The notes beneath the pieces are model-generated. The model was not told the origin of the DNA, did no database searches, and was given only the letters and a program-made list of their open reading frames with translations. 55,860 nt of DNA from Oscillospiraceae bacterium (GTDB lineage: Bacteria; Bacillota; Clostridia; Oscillospirales; CAG-272). Below, piece after piece: positions 35,020-55,699 of this stretch (positions are counted from its first letter, which is position 1; every line of letters begins with the position of its first letter). A program made the translations under genes and the position numbers. Location: NCBI GenBank assembly GCA_015064735.1, contig SVRP01000005.1, positions 105,934-161,793 of the forward strand, in the 5' to 3' direction.

Positions 35020-36381
35020 ATGAACACCATTTATGACGTATGTGCAATAGAGCTTGCAAGAAAGCTCAATTCTTTTACAAAGGTATTCCCCTGCAGTAAA
35101 GGCGCCAACGAGATGATAACCTATCTCGTAAGCGAAAATACTCTTGGCGATTTTTTATGCACCGCAGGTGAATGCGGATTTATAAAGGTTTCCGAGGATA
35201 TAGACGAAAAGCATATCTTTTACACACTTGAGAGCAAGAGAGAGCGTATGTACGTTCTCTATCTTAAGTCTTGCGAGGAGCTGAAGCTCATATGGGAAAA
35301 CATTGAAAAACTCCCTGCCACCGATACCGACGGACAGAGTGAAGTCAAGGTCTTACAGCTTGGTATAGGAAACTACGGCAAGCACACCGACAATCCAATG
35401 GTTGGAATGGGATATATTATAAAACTCGCAAACTCTCATGCAATAATAGTTGACGGCGGATATGACACCGAGGGCTGTGCGGACAATCTGTTTGCCTCTC
35501 TTGAAAGGTTAGAAATTGCCAGAAATAAAGAAAGGTTCATCATCGATGCGTGGTACATCACTCACCTCGACGGAGACCACATAGGAATTCTGAAATCCTT
35601 TTTCTCTAAGTATTCCGACAATGTAGCAGTGGGCTCTTTCGTTCAGAATTTCCAGGTAGGAGACCCCGCCATAAACGAATACAACTACAAGCAAGTAGGC
35701 GACGATTATATCACTCTTATGGAAAGCGCTTGCCCCGATGCCAAGGTAATAACAGCACATCCCTCGTGCGTGTTCAACTATGCGGGCGCAAGTATAAGGA
35801 TACTCTACACCGCAGAAATGTATTACTCGCTCTTTTCAAGGCTCATGGACGGAAACGACGCAAGTCTTATATTTATGCTTGAGACCAACGGAAGGAAGAT
35901 GCTCTTTATGGGAGACGGTGGTGAGGTCAGCGCAAGATGTCTTTATTCGGCTTACGGAAAGGACACGCTGAAGTGCGACGTGCTTCAGGTTCCCCACCAC
36001 GGTCTTACAACGGGACATATGGTATTCAAGCGTCCTATGTCCGAGCACGCTTATCTTAACAGAATATACGAATACGCGTCCCCCGATTTTGCCGCTATGC
36101 CTATGGGAGAAACATTTAATCCATACAGAGATTGCTACGGAAACAATCAGCGAAAGTTTGTTTTGGAGAACTACCCACAGGACGGATATTTTATAGACAA
36201 GAGCCGTGTGGATATGGGATACGATGGCATAAACGTTATATGCTCTCCCAAGGACGGAGGCAAGGTACTCACCACTTATATGATGTCCTCGGACCGCGAA
36301 CCCATGGCTACTGTTTTTTCATTTGGCAAGGACGGTGTTTCGGTTCAATTCAACGATACTCTCTCCTCATTCCTTTCGTAA
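35020..36381 (+). CDS. ComEC-like metallo-beta-lactamase-fold hydrolase, paralogue 1
   Basis: A 453-residue soluble protein, no signal peptide or membrane segment. Residues ~1-125 are a domain shared in outline with the proteins at 45920 and 54143. Then comes an MBL fold: AIIVDGG, THLDGDH (182-187), MLFMGDGGE, and VLQVPHHG. The second His of HxHxDH is Asp here, as is common in ComEC-type domains. The final part AMPMGETFNPYRD and DMGYDGINVICSP is shared with paralogue 2. GGGAGG precedes the ATG, and the gene starts 19 bp after the permease. The substrate is unknown; a phosphodiester or similar is possible from the fold. It is not a DNA-uptake protein, since the ComEC channel is absent. Confidence 0.75.
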   Translation: MNTIYDVCAIELARKLNSFTKVFPCSKGANEMITYLVSENTLGDFLCTAGECGFIKVSEDIDEKHIFYTLESKRERMYVLYLKSCEELKLIWENIEKLPATDTDGQSEVKVLQLGIGNYGKHTDNPMVGMGYIIKLANSHAIIVDGGYDTEGCADNLFASLERLEIARNKERFIIDAWYITHLDGDHIGILKSFFSKYSDNVAVGSFVQNFQVGDPAINEYNYKQVGDDYITLMESACPDAKVITAHPSCVFNYAGASIRILYTAEMYYSLFSRLMDGNDASLIFMLETNGRKMLFMGDGGEVSARCLYSAYGKDTLKCDVLQVPHHGLTTGHMVFKRPMSEHAYLNRIYEYASPDFAAMPMGETFNPYRDCYGNNQRKFVLENYPQDGYFIDKSRVDMGYDGINVICSPKDGGKVLTTYMMSSDREPMATVFSFGKDGVSVQFNDTLSSFLS

Positions 36382-36401
36382 ACAATAATTATATTTTCCT
36401 G

Positions 36402-36430
36402 TTGCAAAGTCAGGCTTTTTGTGATATAAT
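36402..36430 (+). promoter_or_regulatory. Promoter of metY-metA
   Basis: TTGCAA (36402-36407), 17 bp, TATAAT (36425-36430). The start codon is only ~37 bp downstream, leaving no space for a SAM riboswitch or T-box. Confidence 0.8.
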
Positions 36431-36466
36431 AGATAAGATAAAAACAAATCCAAGGAGGACTGAAAA

Positions 36467-37756
36467 ATGTCGAATTACAAAATAGAAACAAAATGTGTGC
36501 AGGGCGGATATACTCCCGGTAACGGAGAGCCTCGCCAAATCCCGATAATTCAGAGCACAACCTTCAAGTATGCTTCAAGTGCCGAAATGGGCAAGCTCTT
36601 TGACCTTGAGGCTTCGGGATATTTTTATACAAGATTGCAAAACCCCACCAACGACAGCGTTGCGGCTAAGATATGCGACATGGAGGGCGGTACCGCGGCT
36701 ATGCTTACGTCGTCGGGTCAGGCAGCGAATTTCTTTGCGATATTCAACATTGCTTCCTGCGGAGACCACGTAGTTGCAAGCTCTACCATTTACGGTGGAA
36801 CCTTCAATCTGTTCTCGGTAACTCTTAAGAGAATGGGAATTGAGTTTACCTTCGTTTCTCCCGACTGTACCGACGAGGAGCTTAATGCCGCATTCAGGGA
36901 AAACACCAAGGCTGTCTTTGGCGAAACTATCGCTAACCCCGCTCTTACTGTTCTTGACATTGAGCGTTTTGCAAAGGCGGCTCATGACCACGGTGTTCCG
37001 CTTATTATTGACAATACCTTCGCAACTCCCGTAAACTGCCGTCCCTTTGAGTGGGGAGCCGATATAGTTACTCACTCCACCACCAAATACATGGACGGAC
37101 ACGGTGCGGCTGTAGGCGGATGTATCGTTGATTCCGGTAAGTTCGATTGGACAAAGTATCCCGACAAGTTCCCCGGACTTTGCACCCCCGATGAAAGCTA
37201 TCACGGTGTTACCTACACCGAGCGTTTCGGTCTTGAGGGAGCGTTTATTACAAAGGCAACCGCTCAGCTTATGAGAGACTTCGGCGCAATTCAGGCTCCT
37301 CAGAACGCATTTCTTCTCAATCTCGGACTTGAGAGCCTTCACGTAAGAATGGCAAGACATTGCGAAAACGGACTTGCCGTAGCTAAATTCTTAAAGAACG
37401 ATCCCCGCATTTCTTGGGTAACCTATCCCTCTCTTGAGGGCGACAAGTATTACGAGCTTGCGCAGAAGTACATGCCGAACGGAACCTGCGGAGTTGTAAG
37501 CTTCGGCGTTAAGGGCGGCAGAGCTATGGCTGAAAAGTTCATGGGCAACCTGAAAATCGCCGCAATTGAGACCCACGTTGCCGATGCGAGAACCTGCTGT
37601 CTCCATCCCGCAAGCGCAACTCACCGCCAGATGAACGAGGAAGAGCTTGTTGCATGCGGTATTTCGGGAGACCTCGTACGTCTTTCCTGCGGTATCGAAA
37701 ACAGCGACGATCTTATTGCAGACATTAAGCAGGCACTTGATGCCCTTGATAATTAA
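36467..37756 (+). CDS. metY: O-acetylhomoserine sulfhydrylase
   Basis: A 429-residue PLP enzyme of the Cys/Met metabolism family. [22 protein letters not shown], the PLP lysine in [12 protein letters not shown] (Lys207) and the C-terminal [27 protein letters not shown] are diagnostic of the MetY (O-acetylhomoserine aminocarboxypropyltransferase) branch. It makes homocysteine from O-acetylhomoserine and sulfide. AAGGAGG precedes the ATG. metA follows 23 bp later, giving a two-step pathway in one transcript. Confidence 0.95.
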
Positions 37757-37779
37757 ATTTCAGGAGTGTAACGGTAACT

Positions 37780-38697
37780 ATGCCGATAAAAATACCAAAT
37801 CTTTTGCCTGCCACGCAGGTACTGTTAAACGAAAATATTTTTGTAATGACCGAGACCCGCGCCATTACGCAGGATATCCGTCCTCTTAAGATACTCATGC
37901 TCAATCTTATGCCTCAGAAAATAACCACCGAGACACAGATAGCAAGACTTATAGGTAACACCCCCTTGCAGGTCGAGCTTGAGCTTTTGCAGACCGCCAC
38001 ACACAAATCCAAGCACACCTCCGCCGAGCACATGCTTGCCTTCTACAAGACCTTTGACGAGGTAAAGCATAAAAAATACGACGGCATGATAATCACGGGA
38101 GCCCCCGTTGAAAATCTCCCCTTTGAGGAAGTGGATTATTGGGATGAGCTCTGCGAGATAATGGAATGGAGCAAGACCCACGTTACAAGCACGTTTCATA
38201 TCTGCTGGGGCGCTCAGGCAGGTCTTTACTACCATTACGGAGTCAAAAAATACCCTCTTGAAAAGAAGCTATTTGGAGTTTTTGAGCACAAGCTCGACTA
38301 CAAGCAGTCTATCCTTTTCAGAGGCTTCGACGACACATTTGTTGTTCCCCATTCGAGACACACAACCTGCAAACGCGAGGATATAGAAGCTATTCCCGAA
38401 CTTAAGATACTTTCAAGCTCCGATGAAGCGGGTGTTTTCGTCTGCGCAACCGACAAGGGCAGACAGATATTCGTTACGGGTCATTCCGAATATGACGGCG
38501 ACACCCTAAAGAATGAATATCTTCGCGATAAGAATGCAGGACTTCCCATTGATCTTCCCAAGTACTATTTCCCGGACGATGACGATACAAAGGAGCCTAT
38601 CGTCAGATGGAGAAGCTGTGCAAATCTTCTCTACTCCAACTGGCTCAACTATTTCGTATATCAGTCTACGCCTTATAACATTGAGGATATAGAATAA
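37780..38697 (+). CDS. metAA: Homoserine O-acetyltransferase (MetA type)
   Basis: A 305-residue glutamine-amidotransferase-like enzyme. The nucleophile is Cys142 in [10 protein letters not shown], His sits in VPHSRHTT and the closing Glu/His in VTGHSEYD. Residue 111 is Glu ([15 protein letters not shown]), which in studied MetA enzymes gives acetyl-CoA instead of succinyl-CoA specificity (Gly there gives succinyl). The product would feed MetY directly. It is co-transcribed with metY. Confidence 0.93.
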
Positions 38698-38718
38698 ACT
38701 CTTCGGAGGAAAACATAA

Positions 38719-39996
38719 ATGAAGAAGCTGTTCTCCCTGCTTCTTGCCTTGATTTTATGCGCACTGTGCTTTGCATCGTGCGGCAAGGATAAGGTCGAGC
38801 AGGATGATAATTTTTACTACTACCGTCTTGAGGACAACACCTACGGAGTGTCCTTGAAAAACACAAAGCTTACCGACATAGTCTTTCCCGATTCCTTTAA
38901 CGGCGCACCCGTAACCAAGATCCTCTGCTCGGATTTTGTTTCATCCAAAGAAATTACCGTAACGATTCCCAACAGTGTAAGGATTATCGGCGAGAGTGCT
39001 TTTGCAGGACTTTGGGGACTTAGGAGCATCAAGATTCCCGCAAGCGTTACATCAATCGAAAAGTCCGCTTTTTCAGGATGCACGAATCTTGAAGCCGTTG
39101 TCTTTGAGGAAGGCAGTCAGCTTAAGATACTTTCGAATCACGCTTTCTCGAACTGCACTGCCCTTACGTCATTCCATATTCCCGACTCGGTTTCCACCCT
39201 GGGAGACAGAGCCTTTGCATTCTGTATAAATCTCCGTGAAATAACACTTCCCTCAAGTGCCGAAAGCATTGCCACGTGGATGTTCCACGGCTGCTCTGCT
39301 CTTGAATCGGTAACCGTCCCGGAGGGTACGGTCAATATCGGAGACCGCTCATTCCACGGATGTACGGCTCTTAAAACTGTTAATCTTTCACAGAGCGCAA
39401 CTCACATAGGAAATTACGCCTTCAGCGGATGCACGTCCCTCGAAACCGTAAGCTCTCCAAACGGAGTATCCTATATCGGAACAGAAGCCTTTTACAACTG
39501 CTCAAAGCTTACAGGACTTAAGATCTCGAACGATATCCAAACAATATCCAACGATGCCCTCAGAGGCTGCAGCAGTCTTGCTTTTAACGAATATGATACA
39601 GCCTTCTATCTCGGAAATGACAGCAACCCTTACGTGGTTCTCGTAAAAGCTAAGCCTCAGAATATCACCTCCTGCACCGTTCCCGACGGCACAAGGATCA
39701 TTTACAACGGGGCATTTGAATATTGCGAGTTTTTAACTACTGTTACACTTGGTAACTCTGTAACCCATATCAACAGATGCGCTTTCTACAACTGCGATGC
39801 GCTTACTTCAATAACGATACCTAAAACCCTGACAGAAATAGGCGAGTTTGCTTTTTACCGATGTACAAACGTATCCGATTTAAGATACGCGGGAACCGCC
39901 GATGAATGGCGAAATATTGCGTTTGGTGTCCAGTGGAATGAATATTCCTCGGCTTACACCGTTTATTGCTCCGACATAACACTGAATATCGGCTAA
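38719..39996 (+). CDS. BspA-like leucine-rich repeat lipoprotein
   Basis: A 425-residue secreted protein. The signal peptide MKKLFSLLLALILCALCFASC ends in a lipobox (CFAS-C). The mature part is a run of LRR_5 units with the pattern AFxxCxxLxxIxIPxSVxxIGxxAF, for example AFSGCTNLEAV, AFSNCTALTSFHIPDSV, SFHGCTALKTV, AFYNCDALTSITIPKTL. The C-terminal NVSDLRYAGTADEWRNIAFG closes the array as in other clostridial members. Such proteins bind host or microbial surfaces. It lies 21 bp after metA with GGAGG before the ATG, so it may be co-transcribed by read-through, though the functions are unrelated. Confidence 0.9.
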   Translation: MKKLFSLLLALILCALCFASCGKDKVEQDDNFYYYRLEDNTYGVSLKNTKLTDIVFPDSFNGAPVTKILCSDFVSSKEITVTIPNSVRIIGESAFAGLWGLRSIKIPASVTSIEKSAFSGCTNLEAVVFEEGSQLKILSNHAFSNCTALTSFHIPDSVSTLGDRAFAFCINLREITLPSSAESIATWMFHGCSALESVTVPEGTVNIGDRSFHGCTALKTVNLSQSATHIGNYAFSGCTSLETVSSPNGVSYIGTEAFYNCSKLTGLKISNDIQTISNDALRGCSSLAFNEYDTAFYLGNDSNPYVVLVKAKPQNITSCTVPDGTRIIYNGAFEYCEFLTTVTLGNSVTHINRCAFYNCDALTSITIPKTLTEIGEFAFYRCTNVSDLRYAGTADEWRNIAFGVQWNEYSSAYTVYCSDITLNIG

Positions 39997-40000
39997 CACA

Positions 40001-40043
40001 AAAACATACGGGCTGAGTCAATTTGACTCAGCCCGTATGTTTT
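40001..40043. terminator. Bidirectional terminator with 20-bp stem
   Basis: AAAACATACGGGCTGAGTCA pairs exactly with TGACTCAGCCCGTATGTTTT across a 3-nt loop, between two convergent genes. Confidence 0.9.
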
Positions 40044-40072
40044 ATTAGTAAAGGACAAGGTGGAGTTCGATA

Positions 40073-41299: not shown

Positions 41300-41407
41300 A
41301 ATTTTTCTCCTTTATTTAAATTTTATTTTGGTCATTTCATTCTACCATAAATATCAATTATAAATCAACACTTTTCCCTAGATTTAACACTTTTTTAACA
41401 AAATAAC

Positions 41408-44371
41408 CTAGCTATCTATTCCAAATCTTACGAAAGCATATCCATCGTTGAATTTTTCGCATTTTCCGTTTTCCCATTTTTTCTCGAATGAGAACGTTTT
41501 GGGATTCACGGATAACGGCTCGGCTATTTCACCGTGATGGGGTCCCATAAGATTACGGTAGCTGTTGCAAAGTGTTACGGTCAGCTCATTTTCTCCCTCG
41601 CAAAGGAAGTCTTTAAGATCAATATCCTCCGAAAGCAAAAGCACTCCCACCTTTTTCCCGTTCACCGATATTTCCGCGGTTGCGTATCTTCCCGTAAGAC
41701 GAAGCCACGTTGTGTCTCCCTTTTTGTGAGTTACCGTTGTGGAGAAGGTTATCTCTCCCGCAAAGAAGGGATATCCGTCGGTTACGATATTACCTGCGTT
41801 TATATCCTTCCTTTGAGCTACGAGAGCCAAGCCCCCCTCCTTTGAATAACGAATTCCGTTATTTTCGCAAAAGGTAAAGCATGCGGGATCTGTATCTACG
41901 GCAAAATTGCCGCGGAGATATACGTTTTCTATTTCAGTGTCGAAAACCAAGCAATTACGCAATGACTCGGAAACTCCGCCGTAAAGAACGTAATATACGT
42001 AGTCGCTTTGATAATAATCAATATCCAGCTCAACGTTATTTGCCCCCTCCTTTACGTAGGGCGCGATATCCGTAACTCTAAAAGAACGGTCAATTGCAAA
42101 ATCATTCCCCATTTTTACCTTTTTGCCGTTTACTCTTATATACTCGCTAACTCTCGCAGTCTCGGATATAAGCTCCAGCTTGTTCGGAGTACATTTCAGT
42201 TCAAAGGGAAAAATCAAAGTAACCTTTCCGCAGTAGCGGTCATAAAGAAGCTCGTCTCTTATTCGCTCCATAGGACGCAATTCAGATGGCTCTGCGCCGT
42301 TAAGAGATACTCTTGCTCTGTCAAGAGTAATATAGTTTACAGGCAGGTCCTTCACCTTAAACGGCGAGTTCAGCTTGATAAATTTCTTGGGCTCACTTTC
42401 GACATAAGGAAGGAAATCGGGAGCCTCATATTCGCAAAGAACATACGACTCGCTTCCGAAAAGATCGATTATCGCCTCCACCCCGTCGGAGGTCTTTCTT
42501 CCTCTGATCGCGGATATATCAAGAGCTGCTATATCAAGTTTGCCGAGTCTTTCGCTTCCCTTGCTCTTTACGTTTATACCGTAAATATCCTTACCCGTAA
42601 GGTTAGTAATATATATAAGTCTGCCGTATTCGGTGCTTCTTACCATTACTCTAACGTCCGAAAGGGCTACGTTTTCCGGGTATTCAAGAATCACGGCCTG
42701 AGAGCCGAGAATTTCGGAAATGACATCCGCATCGGTAACGTCTCTGCAATTACCGAAAATATCAAGCTCTGCCAATCTACCGTCTATCCGCTTGGGCAAA
42801 TGATGCTTGTAAGTATAAACCTTTCCGCCGTTTTCCATAAACTGTGAAAGAAGCTCAACCGTCTCTTTATCCAGCGTATCGCAAGCCGGCAGAACCACCT
42901 TGTTATATTTGCAAAGGCCAATCCTTATGTAATTATCCTCAACAGACGCAAGATTCTTCATTATTTCTTCATTTCCAAAATGGTATCCTATTCCGTTTCC
43001 GGAAAGCAGATAGCAGAGAGCTTCAAAATCTCCGTCAAGCTCGGCAACCGATGTCTTCATCTCAATGCGCTTGAATTTCAGCCATGCGCTGTGAATAGGA
43101 TGTATAACCAGAGTGTCTGCCACCTCCTCGCCCATAGAAAGCATATATCCGAGGTTATTGAAATATTGGTTGAAATTCTTCATTTCCTTGCCCCAAAGAT
43201 TGTGCTCGGAATAGAAATTGGGATAGTCTCTCTTTCGCTCTCCTCTTATAGAATATGGCAGAAGGTGCTGACACGTTACGTTTACTCCGCTTGCATACTG
43301 AAGCTCGGTGATATGCTTAAGCTCTCTCGGGGAAACGTCCCAGCCGCAGCAACCGAACATTTCGGATATGGCTTTCTTTCTGCCGGTCTGGGCGCAGACA
43401 CTGCCGAGCTGCTTGTGAGCAAGGTCGGTCTGCAATTTTCTGCCGAGATAATCTATACCGGGAATATGCTCGTACAAATATTGAGGCATTATATCCCCAC
43501 AGCACATCATCTGTCCTCTAAGAGAATTTTCCTCAACGAAATGCCCCGTAATTCTTATTCCGTTATTTTCCGCCCAATCGTACATTCTCTTGGAAAAATT
43601 CTCGGTGAATTTTCTGTTGGTCATTTTGTGATAGTCGTATCGGAATTCCTCTGCTCCCTTGTAATCACAGAAAAGTGAGGGCAGAGCTTCCTTTACAGAA
43701 TATCCGTACTCGTCAAGGAACCACTCGTCCATTTTCTTTGAAAAGGGTGTTTTCCAACGGTAATACTGAGGCTCATCGGTGAAAAATCCCGTAAGTCCGC
43801 GACCGAAATCCTCGGGAAACTTTTTCTTATATTCACCGTGAGTGGCTTCAAGAAATTTATCGGTAACGTCGGCTCTCATGGTATCTACGTAGGAGCCGTC
43901 GGTACCCACGGTAACGTGAAGATATCTGCTTGCTCCGTCTACGACCGTTTCGGTAAGTCTCGGAATTCCGTTTCCGTCAAAATAATAGACGGCATACGTA
44001 TTTTCGACAATCTCGGGATATTTTTCGCAAAGCTCTCCCTCGACGAATACTGCGTGATTTTCGGGATCCTCAAGAAGCTTTCCTCCCGCAAATCCGCTGG
44101 GCCAGCCGTTTTCGTCATACGCCCATGCTTCAAGCCCGAGCCTTTCCGCTTCATCAATACAGGTCTTTATACAGTCGTACCATTCGTCGGACAGATATTC
44201 TGTTTCAAGTCCCGTTCTTGCATGCATGAAGAAGCCTCGGCAGCCCATATCCTTGATGTAATGCATCTGACGGATAAGCTCCTCGCCCTTAAGTCTGTCA
44301 TTCCAACACCAAAAAGGAATACTGCCGTATTCTATTGCGTGTTTTTTTATGTTCTCGGCAAATTTATTCAT
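41408..44371 (-). CDS. GH106-like alpha-L-rhamnosidase family glycosidase
   Basis: A 987-residue protein. The N-terminal part reads GSIPFWCWNDRLKGEELIRQMHYIKDMGCRGFFMHARTG, then AWAYDENGWPSGFAGGK and LTGFFTDEPQYYRW, the (alpha/beta)8 domain pattern of GH106-type enzymes. TGHFVEENSLRGQMMCCGDIMPQYLYEHIPGIDYLG carries probable catalytic Glu. The C-terminal ~400 residues are beta-rich with a galactose-binding-like module (FAGEITFSTTVTHKKGDTTWLRL). There is no signal peptide. GH106 enzymes remove rhamnose from rhamnogalacturonan. I take the ATG at 44371 (GGAGG 9 nt upstream) over a start 18 bp earlier. No terminator is visible downstream. Confidence 0.78.
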   Translation of the reverse strand: MNKFAENIKKHAIEYGSIPFWCWNDRLKGEELIRQMHYIKDMGCRGFFMHARTGLETEYLSDEWYDCIKTCIDEAERLGLEAWAYDENGWPSGFAGGKLLEDPENHAVFVEGELCEKYPEIVENTYAVYYFDGNGIPRLTETVVDGASRYLHVTVGTDGSYVDTMRADVTDKFLEATHGEYKKKFPEDFGRGLTGFFTDEPQYYRWKTPFSKKMDEWFLDEYGYSVKEALPSLFCDYKGAEEFRYDYHKMTNRKFTENFSKRMYDWAENNGIRITGHFVEENSLRGQMMCCGDIMPQYLYEHIPGIDYLGRKLQTDLAHKQLGSVCAQTGRKKAISEMFGCCGWDVSPRELKHITELQYASGVNVTCQHLLPYSIRGERKRDYPNFYSEHNLWGKEMKNFNQYFNNLGYMLSMGEEVADTLVIHPIHSAWLKFKRIEMKTSVAELDGDFEALCYLLSGNGIGYHFGNEEIMKNLASVEDNYIRIGLCKYNKVVLPACDTLDKETVELLSQFMENGGKVYTYKHHLPKRIDGRLAELDIFGNCRDVTDADVISEILGSQAVILEYPENVALSDVRVMVRSTEYGRLIYITNLTGKDIYGINVKSKGSERLGKLDIAALDISAIRGRKTSDGVEAIIDLFGSESYVLCEYEAPDFLPYVESEPKKFIKLNSPFKVKDLPVNYITLDRARVSLNGAEPSELRPMERIRDELLYDRYCGKVTLIFPFELKCTPNKLELISETARVSEYIRVNGKKVKMGNDFAIDRSFRVTDIAPYVKEGANNVELDIDYYQSDYVYYVLYGGVSESLRNCLVFDTEIENVYLRGNFAVDTDPACFTFCENNGIRYSKEGGLALVAQRKDINAGNIVTDGYPFFAGEITFSTTVTHKKGDTTWLRLTGRYATAEISVNGKKVGVLLLSEDIDLKDFLCEGENELTVTLCNSYRNLMGPHHGEIAEPLSVNPKTFSFEKKWENGKCEKFNDGYAFVRFGIDS

Positions 44372-44403
44372 AAACCGTTTCCTCCACAAGCTTTCTTAAA
44401 TCG

Positions 44404-44432
44404 ATTATACCATATCTTTCCGCATAATGCAA
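44404..44432 (-). promoter_or_regulatory. Promoter of the GH106-like gene
   Basis: On the minus strand TTGCAT (44432-44427), 17 bp, TATAAT (44409-44404). Confidence 0.75.
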
Positions 44433-44433
44433 G

Positions 44434-44464
44434 AAAAATAACGGAGAAATCAAGATTTCTCCGT
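44434..44464 (-). terminator. Terminator overlapping the end of the YgjV-like gene
   Basis: Stem ACGGAGAAATC / GATTTCTCCGT with a 2-nt loop, then TATTTTT on the minus strand. The stop codon of the gene (44452-44450) lies in the top of the hairpin. Confidence 0.8.
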
Positions 44465-45007: not shown

Positions 45008-45014
45008 ATTCCTC

Positions 45015-45070: not shown

Positions 45071-45124
45071 TATTTGTTTGTTACGCAGAAAATCGAACAC
45101 ATGATCGAACATTACGGGGGTATT

Positions 45125-45814
45125 ATGTTGAACGAAAGACAAAATCGAATACTTGAAATAACAGAAAAAAGAAAACGCGTTTCTGTGGAATTTCTCGCAA
45201 AAACACTGTACGTCAGCGAAATGACAGTACGCAGAGACCTACAGAAAATGGACCGTGAGGGGCTTATCAAAAGATATCACGGCGGCGCTCTTGCCTGCGA
45301 GGACTATATTGATTATTCCTTTGATCTCCGTATGCGAATGAACGAAAAGGAAAAGAAAAAGTTAGCGGCAGAGGCTCAAAAGCATATCCGAGACGGTCAG
45401 ACTATATTTTTGCATTGCTCATCCACCTGCGCTTATATTATTCCATGTCTTAAAAATTACAAAAATATAACCGTCGTTACAAATTCCGTTCAGTTTCTCC
45501 TCATGCTCTCAAAAATGAATATACGCTGTATTCTTGCGGGCGGAGAATATTACGGCAGCGAAAGATGTCTCGTGGGTCGGGCAACAGAAAATTTTCTCCG
45601 AAGCATAAACACCGATATAGCCTTTGTTTCGGGCAGCGGGATCTCCGATGACGGAGCGGTAACAGACGGGGACGAGGCAACGGCGGAAATAACCAAGGTC
45701 GCTATAAAAAACACCTCTAAGCTTGTGCTGCTGTCGGACAGCTCCAAGCTCGGCTTTAAATACACCTACAATATATGCCACAAGGACGATGCCGACGCTA
45801 TTATAATCATCTGA
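45125..45814 (+). CDS. DeoR-family transcriptional regulator
   Basis: A 229-residue regulator. N-terminal HTH: ERQNRILEITEKRKRVSVEFLAKTLYVSEMTVRRDLQKMDREGLIKRYHGGAL, which is the DeoR signature. The C-terminal sugar-phosphate sensor has DGQTIFLHCSSTCAYIIPCL, ITVVTNSVQ, ILAGGEYYG, DIAFVSGSGISDDGAVTDGDEATAEI and LLSDSSKLG. Effectors of this family are phosphorylated sugars. The ATG at 45125 follows GGGGG; earlier in-frame starts lie before it. Metallohydrolase paralogue 2 lies 105 bp downstream with its own promoter, and may be a target. Confidence 0.92.
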   Translation: MLNERQNRILEITEKRKRVSVEFLAKTLYVSEMTVRRDLQKMDREGLIKRYHGGALACEDYIDYSFDLRMRMNEKEKKKLAAEAQKHIRDGQTIFLHCSSTCAYIIPCLKNYKNITVVTNSVQFLLMLSKMNIRCILAGGEYYGSERCLVGRATENFLRSINTDIAFVSGSGISDDGAVTDGDEATAEITKVAIKNTSKLVLLSDSSKLGFKYTYNICHKDDADAIIII

Positions 45815-45846
45815 GGAATATTTATAAAACTATTTTTTCAAAAAGG

Positions 45847-45875
45847 TTGACACGGCTTTTCAACCGTGCTACAAT
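45847..45875 (+). promoter_or_regulatory. Promoter of MBL paralogue 2 with inverted repeat in the spacer
   Basis: TTGACA (45847-45852), 17 bp, TACAAT (45870-45875). Within it CACGG (45851-45855) and CCGTG (45864-45868) form an inverted repeat that a repressor could use. Confidence 0.75.
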
Positions 45876-45919
45876 AAGTTAACCTGAATCAAGGTATCAA
45901 GAAAACGGAGGAATAAAAA

Positions 45920-47293
45920 ATGGAACTTCAAATTTTAACTCGCACTCCCGTGCTCAACAGCAGCACCTATTCGAAAATGACTATCCTTGAAAATTATACC
46001 GTTAAAGAGCATGCGGCACTCGTTGGCTTTTTGACCAATGCGGGATATGAACAGCTTTTCAAAAATTATGAAAAGAGCGTCATCACCTGCGTATATAAAA
46101 AGGATGAGGAAATAGTTACGGTTTGCCGTAACTCCGCAAAGTCCGAGGTAAGAGTTATGTGGGAGGATGCAAAATACAATTCTCTTGACACCATAACCGC
46201 TCCCGAGACGGTCGGCGACGGCGAGACCACTCTTTCACAGATAGGTGTCGGCGGATACGGTCATTGCACCGACGACCCCATGATAGGTCTTCATTACCTT
46301 ATAAAGAACTCCGACGGTAAGGCTATTATTCTTGATGGCGGTATATTCGAGGAAAATGCCGACGATATATACAAAGCACTTGAGAGCCACAATATCGCAA
46401 AGGACGAAAGCGGAAAATTCATTATCACCGCTTGGATATTTACCCACGCTCACGGCGACCATATAGGCGCGTTCAATCAGTTCTCTCACAAATACAATGA
46501 TAAGGCGACCGTTGAGTATATTATGTACAACTTTCCCGGCGACGGAAGAGTCGCTACGAGAGAAGCGAATTTTGACGCGTTTGAGAAGAACATCGACGAG
46601 CAGTTTCCCGAGGCAAAGCGCATAGTTCCCAGAATCGCGCAGATTTACTATTTCGGGAATATAAAGATAACTATCGCTTGCTCTCCCGACATGCTCTACA
46701 CCCCAACACGTGTTCTTCCCTACTTTAACGATACGAGCATATACTTTATCCTTGAGGCAGAGGGGGTTAAGACCCTGTTCCTCGGTGACGGCGGTGAAAT
46801 GTGCGCCGAAAAGACCCTTGAGTGCTTCCGCCCAACAACCTTGAAGAGCCACTTTGTTCAGATAACCCACCACGGTCTCTATACAAGCGCGTATAAGACC
46901 CCCTATACTGCCGACGAGGCAACTCTTCTCACCAGAGAAGAAAGGAACGCAAGAGAGGCTGAGAGACACGTTCACGAAAATCTTACCAAGCTTTACGAGA
47001 CCGCCGCTCCTTCTATTGGCTTGTGGCCTATGGGAGATACTCTCGGACATCCGAGAAACGGAAGAACAACCGTTATGAGAGACTGGTCCCGTACCTACGG
47101 TCAGGTCGCTCACTTTGTTGACATCGATTCTCCCGATTCGGGATATGACGGAGTAAACATAGTAAGAAAGGGCGATCTTATTACCTACACCATGTCCTCC
47201 GAGGATAAGCTCATGATAACCAAGTTCCTTCTCAAGGACGGTAAGGCAGAGCTTATTACCAACCAGACCTACGAAAGCTTTCTTGCTGAATAA
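45920..47293 (+). CDS. ComEC-like metallo-beta-lactamase-fold hydrolase, paralogue 2
   Basis: A 457-residue soluble protein, closest in layout to the one at 35020. Residues ~1-110 form the shared N-terminal domain (ENYTVKEHAALVGFLTNAGYE..., EVRVMWED). The MBL fold follows: GVGGYGHCTDDPMIGLHYLIKN, AIILDGG, THAHGDH (176-181) with a full HxHxDH set, FLGDGGE, and VQITHHG, then GLWPMGDTLGHPRN. The C-terminal DSGYDGVNIVRKGDLITYTMSSEDKLMITKF parallels paralogue 1. No signal peptide or transmembrane part. GGAGG precedes the ATG. The metal set suggests an active hydrolase; the substrate is unknown. It is monocistronic between a strong promoter and a strong terminator. Confidence 0.75.
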   Translation: MELQILTRTPVLNSSTYSKMTILENYTVKEHAALVGFLTNAGYEQLFKNYEKSVITCVYKKDEEIVTVCRNSAKSEVRVMWEDAKYNSLDTITAPETVGDGETTLSQIGVGGYGHCTDDPMIGLHYLIKNSDGKAIILDGGIFEENADDIYKALESHNIAKDESGKFIITAWIFTHAHGDHIGAFNQFSHKYNDKATVEYIMYNFPGDGRVATREANFDAFEKNIDEQFPEAKRIVPRIAQIYYFGNIKITIACSPDMLYTPTRVLPYFNDTSIYFILEAEGVKTLFLGDGGEMCAEKTLECFRPTTLKSHFVQITHHGLYTSAYKTPYTADEATLLTREERNAREAERHVHENLTKLYETAAPSIGLWPMGDTLGHPRNGRTTVMRDWSRTYGQVAHFVDIDSPDSGYDGVNIVRKGDLITYTMSSEDKLMITKFLLKDGKAELITNQTYESFLAE

Positions 47294-47298
47294 GCCAT

Positions 47299-47339
47299 AA
47301 AAAATACGGAGAGCCGAAATTCGGCTCTCCGTATTTTTT
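47299..47339. terminator. Bidirectional terminator
   Basis: Stem AAAAAATACGGAGAGCCGA with its complement TCGGCTCTCCGTATTTTTT, separating convergent genes. Confidence 0.9.
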
Positions 47340-48890: not shown

Positions 48891-48922
48891 TTCTTTCCTC
48901 CGTTTTTTCTTTTTACATAAAA

Positions 48923-48951
48923 AGTATACCATATTTTTTTGAAAAAATCAA
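48923..48951 (-). promoter_or_regulatory. Promoter of the aldo-keto reductase operon
   Basis: On the minus strand TTGATT (48951-48946), 17 bp, TATACT (48928-48923). Confidence 0.75.
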
Positions 48952-48987
48952 ATATTTTTTATTGAACGCAATATTTCTGTCTACATC

Positions 48988-49016
48988 TTGAAAATTCCTT
49001 TTGAGTGTGGTATAAT
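48988..49016 (+). promoter_or_regulatory. Promoter of the NSS transporter gene
   Basis: TTGAAA (48988-48993), 17 bp, TATAAT (49011-49016). Confidence 0.8.
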
Positions 49017-49057
49017 GACCTTATAAATTAATATTTGTTATACTTTTGGAGGTCAGC

Positions 49058-50461: not shown

Positions 50462-50469
50462 GCATCCAA

Positions 50470-50508
50470 ACTAATGCTCAACAGAAGTTGAGCATTAGTT
50501 TTTTTTTC
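50470..50508 (+). terminator. Terminator after the NSS transporter gene
   Basis: Stem ACTAATGCTCAAC / GTTGAGCATTAGT with a 4-nt loop and nine T. Confidence 0.9.
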
Positions 50509-50513
50509 ATTTC

Positions 50514-50542
50514 TTGACATTTTTCTAAATTCGTTGTATAAT
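50514..50542 (+). promoter_or_regulatory. Promoter of the TauE/SafE gene
   Basis: TTGACA (50514-50519), 17 bp, TATAAT (50537-50542), a perfect consensus. Confidence 0.85.
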
Positions 50543-50595
50543 TGTTAAGGTGATAAGTCTTTTGAGTTAAAAACGCTTTCTTTTGTGGATAGAAA

Positions 50596-51375
50596 ATGAT
50601 AAAATTATTAGTTTGCCTTCTCGCGGGTCTCGGCGCAGGTCTCGGCACCGGCTTTGCAGGAATGAGCGCAGCAGCCGTAATTACGCCTATGCTCGTAACC
50701 TTTTTAGGTGTCCCGGCATACACAGCAGTAGGAATAGCCTTGGCTTCAGATGTTTTCGCAAGCTTGATTTCGGCATATACATATAAGAAAAAAGGCAATA
50801 TTGATATAAGAAACGGACTTCTTATGATGTCCACGGTGTTGTTATTCACCGCTGTCGGAAGCTTTGTATCAAGTCTTGTTCCAAACGGCACTATGGGAAA
50901 TTTTTCGGTTTTCGTTACACTCGCCGTAGGAATAAAATTTATTATAAAGCCTATTTTAACCACCAAAGAATCCATGCTCAGTGTATCTCCTAAAAGAAGA
51001 GCCATTGAGTCCTTGAGCTTTGGATGCTTAATAGGATTTATATGCGGATTTGTCGGAGCAGGCGGCGGTATTATGATGCTTATGATACTCACGTCAATCC
51101 TCGGATACGAGTTAAAAACAGCAGTGGGTACAAGCGTATTCATTATGTCGTTTACCGCTTTAACAGGCGCCGTATCGCATTTCATTATAGACGGTCCTCC
51201 CGATATTTGGATATTGATCATGTGCGTATTATTCACGCTTATTTTCGCAAGAATCGGCGCGCGGATCGCCAACAACGCATCCCCGATAACACTGAACAGA
51301 ATAACGGGTATCATTCTCGTCGTTCTCGCAATCGCCATTTTTTCGGCAAATGCAATTTTGTCCTCAAGAGGTTAA
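50596..51375 (+). CDS. TauE/SafE-family anion permease
   Basis: A 259-residue protein with eight membrane segments in two halves. The glycine-rich loops GLGAGLGTGFAGMSAAAVITPMLVTFLGVPAYTAVGIALASD and GCLIGFICGFVGAGGGIMMLMILTSILGYELKTAVGTSVF are the paired family signature. Members export sulfite, sulfonates or related anions. A role in sulfur balance next to metYA is speculative; the genes are 13 kb apart. The ribosome site before the ATG is weak, with a Shine-Dalgarno-like GGATAG. It is a single-gene unit. Confidence 0.88.
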   Translation: MIKLLVCLLAGLGAGLGTGFAGMSAAAVITPMLVTFLGVPAYTAVGIALASDVFASLISAYTYKKKGNIDIRNGLLMMSTVLLFTAVGSFVSSLVPNGTMGNFSVFVTLAVGIKFIIKPILTTKESMLSVSPKRRAIESLSFGCLIGFICGFVGAGGGIMMLMILTSILGYELKTAVGTSVFIMSFTALTGAVSHFIIDGPPDIWILIMCVLFTLIFARIGARIANNASPITLNRITGIILVVLAIAIFSANAILSSRG

Positions 51376-51391
51376 AGCCATAAATTACATA

Positions 51392-51419
51392 TTGAAATTC
51401 CCGTAAAGCTGTATATAAT
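51392..51419 (+). promoter_or_regulatory. Promoter of the DUF4177 gene
   Basis: TTGAAA (51392-51397), 16 bp, TATAAT (51414-51419). Confidence 0.7.
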
Positions 51420-51448
51420 AATGGTACAGTTTTTATAGGAGAAACAAT

Positions 51449-51652
51449 ATGCAATACGTCGTTTTACAGGTAATTCTTAAGGAAAAGCTTATTGGTACAG
51501 GTTCGGGCAATCTTACGGAGCTTGAAAAGGTTATAAATACTCAAGCCTCAAAGGGATATCGGCTGCATACCATTTCCACCGTTTCCTCAGGAAGTAAAGG
51601 TCTTATGCGGGGAGACAGAATACAGGCTACAATGGTTTTTGAAAAATTATAA
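51449..51652 (+). CDS. Small DUF4177-type protein
   Basis: A 67-residue protein, MQYVVLQVILKEKLIG followed by LTELEKVINTQASKGYRLHTIS and ATMVFEKL. The beta-alpha-beta arrangement with GYRLHTIS and a final ATMVFEK strand resembles DUF4177, a widespread small protein of unknown function. TAGGAG lies before the ATG, a promoter upstream and a terminator downstream, so it is a genuine independent gene. Confidence 0.8.
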   Translation: MQYVVLQVILKEKLIGTGSGNLTELEKVINTQASKGYRLHTISTVSSGSKGLMRGDRIQATMVFEKL

Positions 51653-51660
51653 TCCGAATA

Positions 51661-51696
51661 AAAATAAAACGGGTCGATCGACCCGTTTTATTTTTT
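51661..51696. terminator. Bidirectional terminator
   Basis: AAAATAAAACGGGTCGA and its complement TCGACCCGTTTTATTTT meet as a near-perfect palindrome between convergent genes. Confidence 0.9.
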
Positions 51697-51705
51697 ATGG
51701 AACGC

Positions 51706-53298
51706 CTAAATTTTTTCCATTTCTGTCGCTCCCTTTTTCCTAAGCCATACAAAAAGCAATATAGCCAAAGCAACGAACAAAACGCAGATACAAATGAAAT
51801 ATACCAAGGGACTCATAAATTTGTGTACCGCAAAGAAAAGTCCCACAGCTCCGCCGGCTAAGGCCATTCCGCCGAAGAGAGTAAGCGCTACGCTCATAGA
51901 CTGCTTTATGGGAATTATCTCGTTTGTCCAGTCGAAGCTGTGCTTTTTGAGATTTATGAAAAGACCGAATTCAGCCATAACAAGCTCAAAAGCAAGAACG
52001 GTAACTATCATAAGCATGGAAGATATGACAGAAAGTCTGAATACGGCAATAGCGCATACAAAAACTATTACCGTGGGGACGGATACGATTATCATGTGCA
52101 TGGAAAGCTTTGCGCGAAGTACCTGCCAACCATTCACGGGAATTACCTTAAGTATCCAGAGATTCTTTCCCTCAAGAGAAATTGACGGCGCAGTAATATC
52201 CAATGTAGGTACCATAAAACATATAATGACTGTCAGGACAAGCGCCACAAGCTCTGGTCTTTTGCCAAAGAGAGCGTCGAAAAGCATGCGAAGATCGTTT
52301 GCCTTAATTACAATGGCAACAGCCGCCACTATCAAAAAGAGCAATCCAAGTCCGCAGTTAAGCATATACGTGGCGCTTCCCGTAAATCTCTTGAATTCCT
52401 TACGTAAAAGGGCGGTATTCACGTTCGCACCCTTTGCCTTCTTTTCTCTATAAGCTTTTTTACGCTCACCCTTATTGACGGTAGCCAGCTTAATAAAGCT
52501 CTTGGAAAGAACAATATAAACCGTTAAGAAAAGTACGGCAACGATAGCTGTGAATATAAGCAGCGATACTACGCTGCCCTCTGCGGCGCGTCCCATATGG
52601 TAAAAGGGATAAAGAGCCTTTTTGAACGCGCTTGCAAGTCTGTCGGCATACGCAAGTATATCGGTAATAACGTTGAGCATTTTAGTATACAGAAACCAAT
52701 ACGCCGCCAATAGCGCAATGCTCAATATAACAGCCGCAAAGTTCTTTGATTTCATTCTTCCGCTGATTGCCGCAACTACAAATCCCAAAACACAGGACAG
52801 AACCAAAATAAAAAACGAAAGAACAACGGTAACAAGCAGGGTAAAAACAACTCCGAAAGCATCGGGATTTCCATGTATAAACCACGCAATAACAATGGGA
52901 ATCATTACGGCAAGCTCATAGATAAGCCCCCAGATATAGACACCGAACAAGCGAGCAAAAAGGATAATTCGGGGTTTTATGGGCATTGACAGCAAAAGGT
53001 CGTTATCCTTTGCTCGGTACAGTGAGGAATAGGTGCTGAAAACACTTCCGAAAACTCCGAAGATCATTGCAACAAGCGCTCCTATGGCAATATAAAGCCA
53101 ACCGAGTCCCACCTGCGCAAGGGGCTTACACATGCTTCCGAACAGGAAATAAAAGGATACACAGAGATATGCAAAAAAGAACACAAGCAAAACGGACATT
53201 ACTATAACGCCGCGCTTATCTCTTCTCGTACCGTCTCTCTTTTTACCGTAGCCCGAAAAAATTTCGGACATCTGCTTTTTCATCAGAGCCTTAATCAT
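51706..53298 (-). CDS. ABC transporter permease (ABC-2 type exporter)
   Basis: A 530-residue protein with about 12 hydrophobic helices. SVFSTYSSLYRAKDNDLLLSMPIKPRIILFARLFGVYIWGLIYE is typical of large ABC-2-type exporter permeases in Firmicutes, and ISLEGKNLWILKVIPVNGWQVLRAKL is a second copy of the same pattern, indicating an internal duplication. The ATG at 53298 lies 9 nt after GGAGG and overlaps the ATPase stop. The cargo is unknown; drugs, lantibiotics or cell-wall components are possible. Confidence 0.85.
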   Translation of the reverse strand: MIKALMKKQMSEIFSGYGKKRDGTRRDKRGVIVMSVLLVFFFAYLCVSFYFLFGSMCKPLAQVGLGWLYIAIGALVAMIFGVFGSVFSTYSSLYRAKDNDLLLSMPIKPRIILFARLFGVYIWGLIYELAVMIPIVIAWFIHGNPDAFGVVFTLLVTVVLSFFILVLSCVLGFVVAAISGRMKSKNFAAVILSIALLAAYWFLYTKMLNVITDILAYADRLASAFKKALYPFYHMGRAAEGSVVSLLIFTAIVAVLFLTVYIVLSKSFIKLATVNKGERKKAYREKKAKGANVNTALLRKEFKRFTGSATYMLNCGLGLLFLIVAAVAIVIKANDLRMLFDALFGKRPELVALVLTVIICFMVPTLDITAPSISLEGKNLWILKVIPVNGWQVLRAKLSMHMIIVSVPTVIVFVCAIAVFRLSVISSMLMIVTVLAFELVMAEFGLFINLKKHSFDWTNEIIPIKQSMSVALTLFGGMALAGGAVGLFFAVHKFMSPLVYFICICVLFVALAILLFVWLRKKGATEMEKI

Positions 53299-54007
53299 CG
53301 CTCTCATCCTCCAGCTCAAGGAATACACTCTCAAGAGAGGTGTCGCCCTTGACCTCGTCCATGGTTCCCGACACAATAAGCTTTCCGTTCTTTATTATAG
53401 CGACCTTATCGCAAAGCTTCTCAGCGACCTCAAGAACGTGAGTCGAGAAAAATATTGCTCCGCCGCCCGCACACATTTCTCTCATAAAGAGCTTTAACGT
53501 ATGGCTTGCCTTAGGATCAAGTCCCACGAACGGTTCGTCCATGATTATGAGCTTCGGGTCGTGTATCAGTGCGGAAATGATAGCAAGCTTCTGCTTCATA
53601 CCGTGAGAGTACGAACCCACAGACTGTCCAAGGTCTTTCTTTATTCCAAGCATTTCGGAATACTTCTCTATCCTTTCTGCTCTCTCTGATTCGCCCACAC
53701 CGTATACGTCCGCTATAAAATTCAAGAACTGTATACCCGTCATAAACTCGTAAAGCTCGGGATTATCGGGAATGTACGCTATCTTGGATTTGCACAAAAG
53801 AGGGTCCTTGGTTATGGAGACTCCGTCTATAAATATCTCTCCCCCATCAAACTGCAAAATGCCGCAACATGCCTTTATAGTTGTAGTCTTTCCCGCACCG
53901 TTATGTCCTATAAAGCCGTATATTTCACCGGGCTTTATATGCAAGGTCAGGTCATCTACCGCCTTTTTATCTCCGTAGGTTTTTGTAAGTTTATTGATTT
54001 TGAGCAT
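53291..54007 (-). CDS. ABC transporter ATP-binding protein
   Basis: A 238-residue ATPase. Walker A GHNGAGKTTT, Q-loop YIPDNPELYEFMT, signature SYSHGMKQKLAI, Walker B LIIMDEPFVGLD and H-loop FFSTHVLE are all intact. Note SHGMKQ in the signature, a common variant of SGGMKQ. The start at 54007 follows GGAGG by 8 nt. It energises the downstream permease, with which it overlaps by 8 bp. Confidence 0.95.
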   Translation of the reverse strand: MLKINKLTKTYGDKKAVDDLTLHIKPGEIYGFIGHNGAGKTTTIKACCGILQFDGGEIFIDGVSITKDPLLCKSKIAYIPDNPELYEFMTGIQFLNFIADVYGVGESERAERIEKYSEMLGIKKDLGQSVGSYSHGMKQKLAIISALIHDPKLIIMDEPFVGLDPKASHTLKLFMREMCAGGGAIFFSTHVLEVAEKLCDKVAIIKNGKLIVSGTMDEVKGDTSLESVFLELEDESDD

Positions 54008-54037
54008 AATAATATCCTCCAAAAAGATTCTGTTCTA

Positions 54038-54066
54038 ATGATACCACAATATGCAAAAAAAGTCAA
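54038..54066 (-). promoter_or_regulatory. Promoter of the ABC exporter operon
   Basis: On the minus strand TTGACT (54066-54061), 17 bp, TATCAT (54043-54038). Confidence 0.75.
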
Positions 54067-54084
54067 TAGAATAATAGTTTACTC

Positions 54085-54113
54085 TTGATATTTAAGATTT
54101 TTCATGATATAAT
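54085..54113 (+). promoter_or_regulatory. Promoter of MBL paralogue 3
   Basis: TTGATA (54085-54090), 17 bp, TATAAT (54108-54113). Confidence 0.8.
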
Positions 54114-54142
54114 GAGCAAAAAAATCTTTAAGGAGAAATACC

Positions 54143-55699
54143 ATGAATAACATTCCGATTTTTTGTGGGCTCGAAACCGCAGAAACACAGGCTAACAAAA
54201 ATTCAAGAGTGCTTACTGCGTCGGGAGCGAGCCTTCAAAGCTTTCAGAACTATTGCAAGGAGCTTTCGGTTATCGGATTTCAAAAACAGGAAAATTACTC
54301 AGAGGGTGATCATTACTACGCTTCGTTCTCCGGAAAGGACAACTGTGTTTTCGTAAATTATTTTGATTCCATAGGTGAGATTTTTGCAACCGAGGAAACC
54401 AACTGCGCTTATTTCTCATTTAAGGATAACTCAGAAACAGGCTTTTCCGTCTCCGCTCAGATAACGCAAATAGACCTTGTGGACTTCGGAATGTCCTATG
54501 CTATAAGACTTACCGACGGCAGATTCATAATCATTGACGGCGGTCGTGAATTTGAGGAGGATGCCGCTAAGCTCTGGAAGTGCATAAGTGAGGGTACTCC
54601 CAATGGAATGACTCCCACGGTGGCTTTATGGATACTTACACATCCTCATAGCGACCACTATCACGGTGCATTTACCTTTATAGAAAAGTATTTGAACTCG
54701 GTCAAAATTCAGAAATTCCTGCTCAACTTTCCCGAGCATGACGATTTTGAGCACTACCCTCAGCTTCAGAGCAAAGATTTCCGTTTTGAGGATTCCTCGG
54801 GATACACCAACATTCCCCGTATGTTCAGGGCAATAGAAAAAACAGACGCTAAGGTTTTCATGGCGCACACGGGACAAAAGTACCGAGTCGGCGGCGCAAG
54901 TATCAAAATTCTTAGTTGCATGGATGACACAATTCATATAAGCGACAGCATAAACGCATCCTCTATCGTTTTTCGCATGGAGCTTGCGGGACAGAGCATC
55001 CTCTGGGGTACAGACGGAAGCTTCAGCACAAGCAATCTTGCCGAGCGTTATGGAGAGACTCTGAAATCCGATATTCTTCAGATACCTCACCACGGCTTCA
55101 GCAGCGGCACTGTTGAAGGCGAAATAACAGCATACAGACACATTCGTCCCTCGGTCTGCTTTTTACCCGTATCGGATTTCAATGCTTATTACGTATTCAG
55201 CTCCTTTAAAAAAGGGACAGAATTTCTTATGAAGCACGCTGACGTTGACGATATAATTTCGGGCACGGGTCAGCGCACCGTAACACTGCCCTATATTCCC
55301 GATGCCTACAGAAAGCGGGAGTACAAGGAAAAATACGAAAAGGGGCAAAGAAGCTCGGGAGCGCATACGTGGTTCTTCACCGACCTTTCAACGGCATGCG
55401 AGGAGGACTTCGTGTTTACCGTCCTTAACACGGTTACCAACCCCGCCACTGTTTGGATAGAACTATTTTTTGAAGACTATCACGATAATATAAGACATAT
55501 AAAAATCACAGTGAAAAGCTGCGCTATGAAAAAATTCTCAATTATAGGCGACGAGGTAGACCCGGATGCCGTATTCTTCAACTGGATGTCCTTAAAGGAA
55601 AAGGGTATTCCCGAGAATACGACCTTTGCCGTAAGATTTATTTCGGATATTCCCGTAGTTATCTCGCACCAAAGGCATCAGGCGGCTTATCATGATTAA
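54143..55699 (+). CDS. ComEC-like metallo-beta-lactamase-fold protein, paralogue 3, with ASRT-like C-terminal domain
   Basis: A 518-residue soluble protein. Residues ~1-105 correspond to the N-terminal domain of the two other paralogues. The MBL core is FIIIDGG, THPHSDH (167-172), GTDGS in place of GDGGE, and LQIPHHG. Residues ~408-518 are extra: HTWFFTD, EEDFVFTVLN, TVWIELFFED, IKITVKS, GIPENTTFAVRFISDIPVVISHQR. That order of strands resembles the ASRT family (Anabaena sensory rhodopsin transducer, a small-molecule-binding beta-sandwich): LN, then a strand ending in ED, then TV, then IP-T-FA, then SD-PVV-H-R. AAGGAG precedes the ATG. It is monocistronic and divergent from the ABC exporter. 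The substrate is unknown. Confidence 0.72.
   Translation: MNNIPIFCGLETAETQANKNSRVLTASGASLQSFQNYCKELSVIGFQKQENYSEGDHYYASFSGKDNCVFVNYFDSIGEIFATEETNCAYFSFKDNSETGFSVSAQITQIDLVDFGMSYAIRLTDGRFIIIDGGREFEEDAAKLWKCISEGTPNGMTPTVALWILTHPHSDHYHGAFTFIEKYLNSVKIQKFLLNFPEHDDFEHYPQLQSKDFRFEDSSGYTNIPRMFRAIEKTDAKVFMAHTGQKYRVGGASIKILSCMDDTIHISDSINASSIVFRMELAGQSILWGTDGSFSTSNLAERYGETLKSDILQIPHHGFSSGTVEGEITAYRHIRPSVCFLPVSDFNAYYVFSSFKKGTEFLMKHADVDDIISGTGQRTVTLPYIPDAYRKREYKEKYEKGQRSSGAHTWFFTDLSTACEEDFVFTVLNTVTNPATVWIELFFEDYHDNIRHIKITVKSCAMKKFSIIGDEVDPDAVFFNWMSLKEKGIPENTTFAVRFISDIPVVISHQRHQAAYHD

Follow-up and report, generated by a model that had tools for sequence, protein, structure and literature searches.

What do three diverged genes with a metallo-β-lactamase (MBL) core do when they lie within 21 kb of one another, and on what would their products act? 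The question is raised by a 55,860-nucleotide stretch of an Oscillospiraceae bacterium (assembly GCA_015064735.1, contig SVRP01000005.1, positions 105,934 to 161,793), henceforth referred to as the window. The three open reading frames, ORF1, ORF2 and ORF3, are supported by sequence and predicted structure as binuclear metal hydrolases that belong to the ComEC/Pce group and to a family multiplied and diversified in one lineage. At a probability of about one half, we favour the reading that they belong to a large two-domain hydrolase family for which small or glycan-linked phosphodiesters, and not DNA, are the most plausible substrates. The genes are as follows.

35020-36381, plus strand: ORF1, N-terminal domain (N-domain) and MBL core, 453 aa
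45920-47293, plus strand: ORF2, N-domain and MBL core, 457 aa
54143-55699, plus strand: ORF3, N-domain, MBL core and ASRAH domain, 518 aa

The preliminary description of the window had called these genes paralogues; the list of open reading frames contains all three and pairwise BLASTP bears out their homology. ORF1 and ORF2 are 32% identical over 448 aa (E = 1e-61) in an alignment that takes in the N-domain, and the alignments of ORF3 with ORF1 (32%, 214 aa, E = 3e-23) and ORF2 (29%, 229 aa, E = 9e-17) cover the MBL core only. In Pfam (cut-off 22.7 bits) the core of ORF2 (38.6) and ORF3 (26.7) scores above the threshold and that of ORF1 (21.3) just below. All three proteins are acidic, and no signal peptide was visible by eye in any of them.

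Active site and fold relatives

The core motifs proposed in the preliminary description (DGG, HxHxDH or HxDxDH, and HHG) are present in all three proteins, and each lineage carries its own signature. Except for Arg238, which was placed by the whole-protein alignment A2, the following sites were located by motif scan and alignment.

35563-35580, plus strand: ORF1 HLDGDH, aa 182-187, ComEC-type HxDxDH
35995-36006, plus strand: ORF1 HHGL, aa 326-329
46445-46462, plus strand: ORF2 HAHGDH, aa 176-181
46631-46633, plus strand: ORF2 Arg238
46868-46879, plus strand: ORF2 HHGL, aa 317-320
54641-54658, plus strand: ORF3 HPHSDH, aa 167-172
55088-55099, plus strand: ORF3 HHGF, aa 316-319

The signatures are HxDxDH in ORF1 (Asp184 is kept in 6/6 ORF1-type rows of alignment A4), Arg in place of a conserved His in ORF2 (Arg in 10/10 ORF2-type rows of A2, His in the other 28) and HHGF in ORF3; after HHG, 24 rows of A2 have Leu and 14 have Phe. 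As far as alignments can indicate, these clade-specific changes fit related but distinct small-molecule substrates. Two metal ions are very likely bound through HxH/DxDH, the GD aspartate and HHG, and an activated water would then hydrolyse a phosphodiester, a chemistry suggested by two relatives, ComEC and Pce.

The nearest solved folds of the AlphaFold models of ORF1 and ORF3 are the ComEC nuclease domain and Pce, with the ComEC MBL structure 9ic4 as the top match of both. The proteins do not fall into different characterised families, since ORF1 and ORF3 share their nearest structures and ORF2 is 32% identical to ORF1 over almost its entire length. Pce is a teichoic acid phosphorylcholine esterase. 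In structural alignments Pce/CbpE (1wra, 2bib, 12qj) are 14-20% identical to the window proteins, and Pce aligns, from its first residues onward, with the part of these proteins that follows the N-domain. The Pce motif set (MBL fold, HxHxDH, GD Asp, HH) is found in ORF2 and ORF3; in ORF1 the second His is replaced by Asp. The choline-binding repeats and surface location of Pce/CbpE have no counterpart in ORF1-3, which show no Pfam match to such repeats and no visible signal peptide.

Compared with the ComEC MBL domain (9ic4; PMC12455585), the window proteins carry the N-domain and lack the competence channel domain (PF03772, no match in ORF1-3 in Pfam at E up to 1). That paper gives the ComEC ligands as HxDxDH, Asp700 and HHGS with Ser728. 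The Asp and HHG occur in all three window proteins, HxDxDH occurs only in ORF1, and HHGS is replaced by HHGL or HHGF. In the alignment with ComEC 9vc6, the column holding Lys in ComEC has His or Arg in this family. The window proteins are acidic, whereas the presumed ComEC site is described as strongly positive in PMC5031224.

These comparisons bear on whether the genes represent copies of the ComEC DNase domain, multiplied without its channel, whose target would be nucleic acid outside the cell or in the cytosol. The top rank of 9ic4, the HxDxDH of ORF1 and a match of the ComEC model TIGR00361 to ORF3 (1.2e-9, 36.9 bits, far below the cut-off of 190) point to a nuclease, but HHGS is found in none of the three, A2 has only Leu or Phe at its last position, the proteins are acidic, and neither the Pfam scans of neighbours nor reading by eye revealed a DNA-processing partner; we consider this explanation quite unlikely. 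According to PMC12455585, the S728A mutation lowers the ComEC rate only ~3-fold, so the loss of the HHGS serine is compatible with nuclease activity.

A role in competence was considered and rejected, in agreement with the preliminary description. The genome has a separate ComEC gene (G000:C26:215858-216673, L151; 756-aa frame), and because ORF1-3 have neither a channel domain nor HHGS, they are not regarded as competence factors. The MBL domain of this ComEC itself seems degenerate, as neither HxDxDH nor HHG could be made out in the final 260 residues.

The N-terminal domain

The preliminary description had proposed that the three proteins share an N-terminal domain. It is ~90 residues long, stands before the ComEC/Pce-type core, and was delimited by profile comparison in all three proteins and additionally by model in ORF1 and ORF3.

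35071-35331, plus strand: ORF1 N-domain, aa 18-104
45941-46219, plus strand: ORF2 N-domain, aa 8-100
54158-54436, plus strand: ORF3 N-domain, aa 6-98

Profile comparison with hhalign gave a probability of 87% (E = 3.9e-6) for the ORF2-type/ORF3-type pair, 59% for ORF1/ORF3 and 36% for ORF1/ORF2. Each of the three N-domain profiles matches two paralogues on contig C3 of the same genome at E <0.01 (hmmsearch with filters off and a nominal database size of 3000). In the two proteins of the three that were modelled, ORF1 (predicted local distance difference test score, pLDDT, 84.7) and ORF3 (pLDDT 91.9), the folded N-domains agree in element order, namely two strands, a 13-residue helix and four strands. 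Judged from profiles and models, the N-domain relationship is thus weak pairwise, yet holds.

A6, a joint N-domain profile whose sequences come largely from this genome, detected 13 N-domain copies in it at E 0.1, each in a gene also matched by the MBL profile. Among the 38 loci fetched as best A6 matches (10 from this genome), 37 carry the HxH/DxDH motif in the same frame; the remaining locus, L127, has the N-domain and the start of the MBL core before a frame break. Since all 13 own copies and all 38 loci show the core or, at L127, its start, the N-domain is always paired with it in the examined set, where it may act as a specificity or lid element. Comparison of the N-domain with solved structures returned 8 matches, the best with E 0.23, which were taken as chance; because the VIA structure lists barely test the N-domain, its fold is not called new. 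No paper on the pairing of N-domain and MBL core was found in a literature search, which does not prove that none exists.

Family expansion

The 20 matches in the 2.1-Mb genome correspond to 18 distinct related MBL genes, as two genes were matched twice; 13 of the genes have the N-domain and 5 lack it. The whole-protein profile A2 at E 1e-15 matched 51 of 98 genomes, this one included: 23/30 in the genus, 18/30 among other family members and 10/38 among other members of the order. At most 16 candidates were scored per genome, and the copy counts are lower bounds for genomes in which this limit was reached. With A6 at 1e-6, 154 copies were found in 23 of the 30 genus genomes (own counted), 1-16 in each and with a median of 5 over all 30. 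Seven genus genomes had no A6 copy, among them the 95% complete G025 and some incomplete genomes. Copies of the family look to have been gained and lost frequently within the genus. A6 found no copy in 15 same-order genomes at E 0.001 (0/15) and, as A2 matched 10/38 there, may miss distant copies. The lineage expansion suggested by the preliminary description is borne out by these counts.

The window genes are nevertheless not recent copies of one another. A tree built from the MBL cores places ORF1 and ORF2 in one group with an exported copy at C29:74.7 kb (support 99/99) and ORF3 with its own orthologues (100/97), which rules out recent duplication of one gene into all three; on this tree ORF1, ORF2 and ORF3 are separate lineages. 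The tree is arbitrarily rooted and weak at its deep forks, and the genome's ComEC was left out as its MBL core was not alignable. Elsewhere in the tree, two exported N-domain/MBL genes (L005:523-2361 and L023:6877-8706) are nearly identical, with core branch lengths of 0 and 0.0046, and reflect either duplication in the very recent past or an artefact of assembly. The clustering in the window is mildly unusual: 3 of 13 randomly placed genes would lie within 20.7 kb with P ~0.07, or P 0.02 when tandem copies are merged to give 9 places.

The three ORFs differ in the number of their database matches. ORF1 had 8 at E 1e-3, of which 5 align almost end to end at 57-98% identity, and at 1e-60 the 97 other relatives contained none; the ORF1-type profile A4 at 1e-70 matched 2 of 394 order genomes, own counted, with 3 candidates scored per genome. 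ORF2 had 43 database matches and ORF3 464, 120 of them listed. The ORF3 profile at 1e-80 matched 4/59 relatives (own counted). A search for related loci with the ORF3 profile gave records of Clostridia and Oscillospiraceae metagenome-assembled genomes, many of them labelled as ruminant hindgut samples.

Exported and cytosolic forms

Export signals were read by eye. A signal peptide or lipobox stands at the start of 8 of the 13 own copies and is lacking in 4, namely the three window genes and a copy at C24:76.5 kb; 1 copy is cut by a contig end. In other genomes, 17 of 28 N-domain loci look exported, 10 do not and 1 is broken. The description of these enzymes as soluble fits the window trio, which look cytosolic, and only a minority of the copies in this genome. 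A ~110-residue exported module, weakly similar to Glyco_hydro_20b/NAGLU_N, was also observed; it is common to MBL, SGNH, BNR-repeat and endonuclease/phosphatase-like lipoproteins and occurs at these loci.

L026:2455-4332: ~110-residue module
L026:11661-13367: ~110-residue module
L029:11492-13387: ~110-residue module
L028:2561-10985: ~110-residue module

NCBIfam and PADLOC matches to ORF1-3 (Avs1a, 6A-MBL, ComEC, LmuA) are weak and fall on the MBL core. Some of them raise the possibility of anti-phage defence, as for the MBL proteins of Lamassu, AVAST type 1 and reverse-transcriptase systems. In PADLOC, LmuA matched ORF1, ORF2 and ORF3 at 2.3e-13, 1.9e-12 and 2e-10 and RTasMBL at 3.4e-10, 5e-7 and 1.5e-8, and Avs1a matched ORF1 (6.8e-6) and ORF2 (9.2e-6) with no row for ORF3. 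The best of these stretches, however, lie on the core and reach at most 48 bits (LmuA ≤48, for which PADLOC sets no cut-off), and NCBIfam Avs1a scores of 28.1 (ORF1) and 29.4 (ORF2) bits, with no row for ORF3, compare with a cut-off of 420. The Pfam-scanned neighbours, for which no PADLOC scan was made, are regulators, a transporter, a glycosidase and a membrane protein, and 8/13 own copies look exported. A defence function is accordingly very improbable.

The ASRAH domain of ORF3

55418-55678, plus strand: ORF3 ASRT-like (ASRAH, PF07100) domain, aa 426-512, identified by Pfam and by structure match to 2ii7 and 2ii9

PF07100 matched ORF3 with E = 3.5e-6 and 27.4 bits against a cut-off of 25, and in Foldseek the C-terminus matched 2ii7 and 2ii9, the latter with a template modelling (TM) score of 0.77-0.79 by target length. 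The β-sandwich with conserved Trp and Asn described for the ASRT/ASRAH family in PMC2739507 is found here, W410 and N429 being present in 31/31 rows. When the ASRT signature SHEshChhN from that text is placed by eye, counting from N429, the position of the ligand His is Asp422 in ORF3-type rows (31/31) and that of the ligand Cys is Thr, Ser or Gln (Thr426 in ORF3). Since the ligand-contacting His and Cys are not kept, the ligand of the ORF3 domain is probably unlike that of ASRT. The word 'lactamase' does not occur in the main text of PMC2739507, as far as that text was available.

Gene neighbourhoods of the window genes

The three distinct regulatory settings named in the preliminary description are apparent: an AraC-transporter-ORF1 run, a DeoR gene before ORF2, and ORF3 alone with its extra domain.

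33024-33833, plus strand: AraC-type regulator, first gene of the probable ORF1 operon
33846-35000, plus strand: CitMHS-family (PF03600) transporter, separated by 12 bp from the AraC gene upstream and by 19 bp from ORF1 downstream
45074-45814, plus strand: DeoR-family regulator, 105 bp upstream of ORF2
45847-45875, plus strand: sigma-70-like promoter match before ORF2, TTGACA-17-TACAAT, 11/12, by consensus only

An inverted repeat at 45850-45869 overlaps the promoter-like site and is possibly the operator of the DeoR regulator. On the opposite strand, upstream of the DeoR/ORF2 pair, lies a GH106-like rhamnosidase gene (window 41408-44389, PF17132 2e-16). At the left edge, window 3-551 is part of a 1114-aa lipoprotein-like frame with collagen-like GPQGPQG repeats that continues leftwards (L031:13141-16485).

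UlaG combines an MBL fold with DeoR-type control. With the DeoR gene before ORF2, the predicted sugar-binding ASRAH domain of ORF3 and the weakly GH20b-like module that exported copies share with SGNH and BNR-repeat proteins, this invites the view that the genes encode UlaG-like lactonases or esterases of sugar metabolism. We hold it to be unlikely. UPF0173-type structures are absent from the best 50 VIA matches of either model (lowest Z 14.8, 15.3), which decides little, and Foldseek lists 3x2y/3x2z at lower rank. The lactonase models score poorly in NCBIfam: PRK00685, the UPF0173 model, at 0.07 for ORF2, and YtnP at 0.026 for ORF3.

A solute-binding lipoprotein near family copies in relatives

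Twenty stretches (18 from the genus, 2 from other family genera) were chosen from the best A2 matches before the following lipoprotein had been noticed; they span 7-19.5 kb, against 13 kb for controls, and several share one genome. A ~500-residue lipoprotein gene on the same strand stands near family copies in 10/20 stretches compared with 2/20 controls (Fisher P 0.007), corresponding to 11/152 non-MBL genes near copies and 2/220 in controls. One of the lipoprotein-bearing controls holds an MBL gene of the family 63 bp away, and without it P is 0.002. The gap to the copy is -3 to 165 bp in 6/10 cases and 460 bp to 4.7 kb in the others, one of which is a partial gene. Both exported and non-exported copies occur in these stretches; close pairs with exported copies include G009:C61, G005:C23 and G011:C11.

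Among solute-binding proteins the lipoprotein is a divergent member of family 1: PF01547 matched 2/5 members (3.7e-8 and 1.8e-4) and gave no match in the other 3/5, and the best PDB match is 3quf (E 0.017). Four such lipoproteins and a weak fifth match are encoded in the window's own genome, where one precedes two copies on C26. Divergent solute-binding lipoproteins form another expanded family in the genus members G009, G017 and G018, with 37, 22 and 21 in 1.6-2.5 Mb.

Pfam families were tallied for 78 of 80 neighbour proteins (two at stretch ends, L161:2-3433 and L173:19018-19500, were left out) and for 90 of a random 95 from 213 control genes (left out at stretch ends: L182:12561-13001, L183:1-2010, L191:4-486, L193:3-437, L196:6-995). 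AraC domains numbered 6 and 3, xylose-isomerase-like domains 2 and 2, and GDSL domains 2 and 4 in neighbours and controls, respectively.

Discussion

Small or glycan-linked phosphodiesters are favoured as substrates because the proteins are acidic and have lost HHGS, many members of the family are exported, and a solute-binding protein or the ASRAH domain accompanies some of them. Several results weigh against this reading, including the TIGR00361 match to ORF3 and the modest effect of S728A given above. Lactonases and other hydrolases are likewise built on the MBL fold. The Fisher P of 0.007 is generous, because the stretches were hand-picked, of unequal length and partly from the same genome. 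No solute-binding gene of this kind lies close to the three window genes, and only 2/13 own copies are preceded by one. The copy numbers of the N-domain and lipoprotein families show no clear correlation when genome size is allowed for (partial rho 0.31, P 0.10). No carbohydrate neighbourhood is apparent in the Pfam tallies, which do not separate neighbours from controls. Beside ORF3 homologues, no shared partner gene was found among the two neighbours in 45 loci, window included; in a clustering of the genes of loci L035-L084 and the window, the ORF3 family occurs in 43 loci and every other gene cluster in ≤5.

Under the phosphodiester reading, the family would have a scavenging role, and the solute-binding lipoprotein beside some exported copies could capture the product. 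The window trio, cytosolic-looking and of separate lineages, would comprise ORF1 with an anion-type transporter after the AraC gene, ORF2 perhaps under DeoR control, and ORF3 with a sugar-sensor-like domain. It is possible, though doubtful, that the module represents a new enzyme family whose multiplied copies serve gut Clostridia as a scavenging system at the surface and in the cytosol, in which exported forms cleave host, plant or microbial glycan or lipid phosphodiesters, the lipoprotein captures the product, and cytosolic forms with exchanged active-site residues finish others under separate regulators.

The findings caution against annotating such N-domain/MBL proteins as competence proteins. 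Through the active-site changes of the individual clades and the linked solute-binding protein, the question of the substrate can be put directly to experiment. Genomes of ~2 Mb that carry 13-16 genes for one uncharacterised hydrolase module must profit from it.

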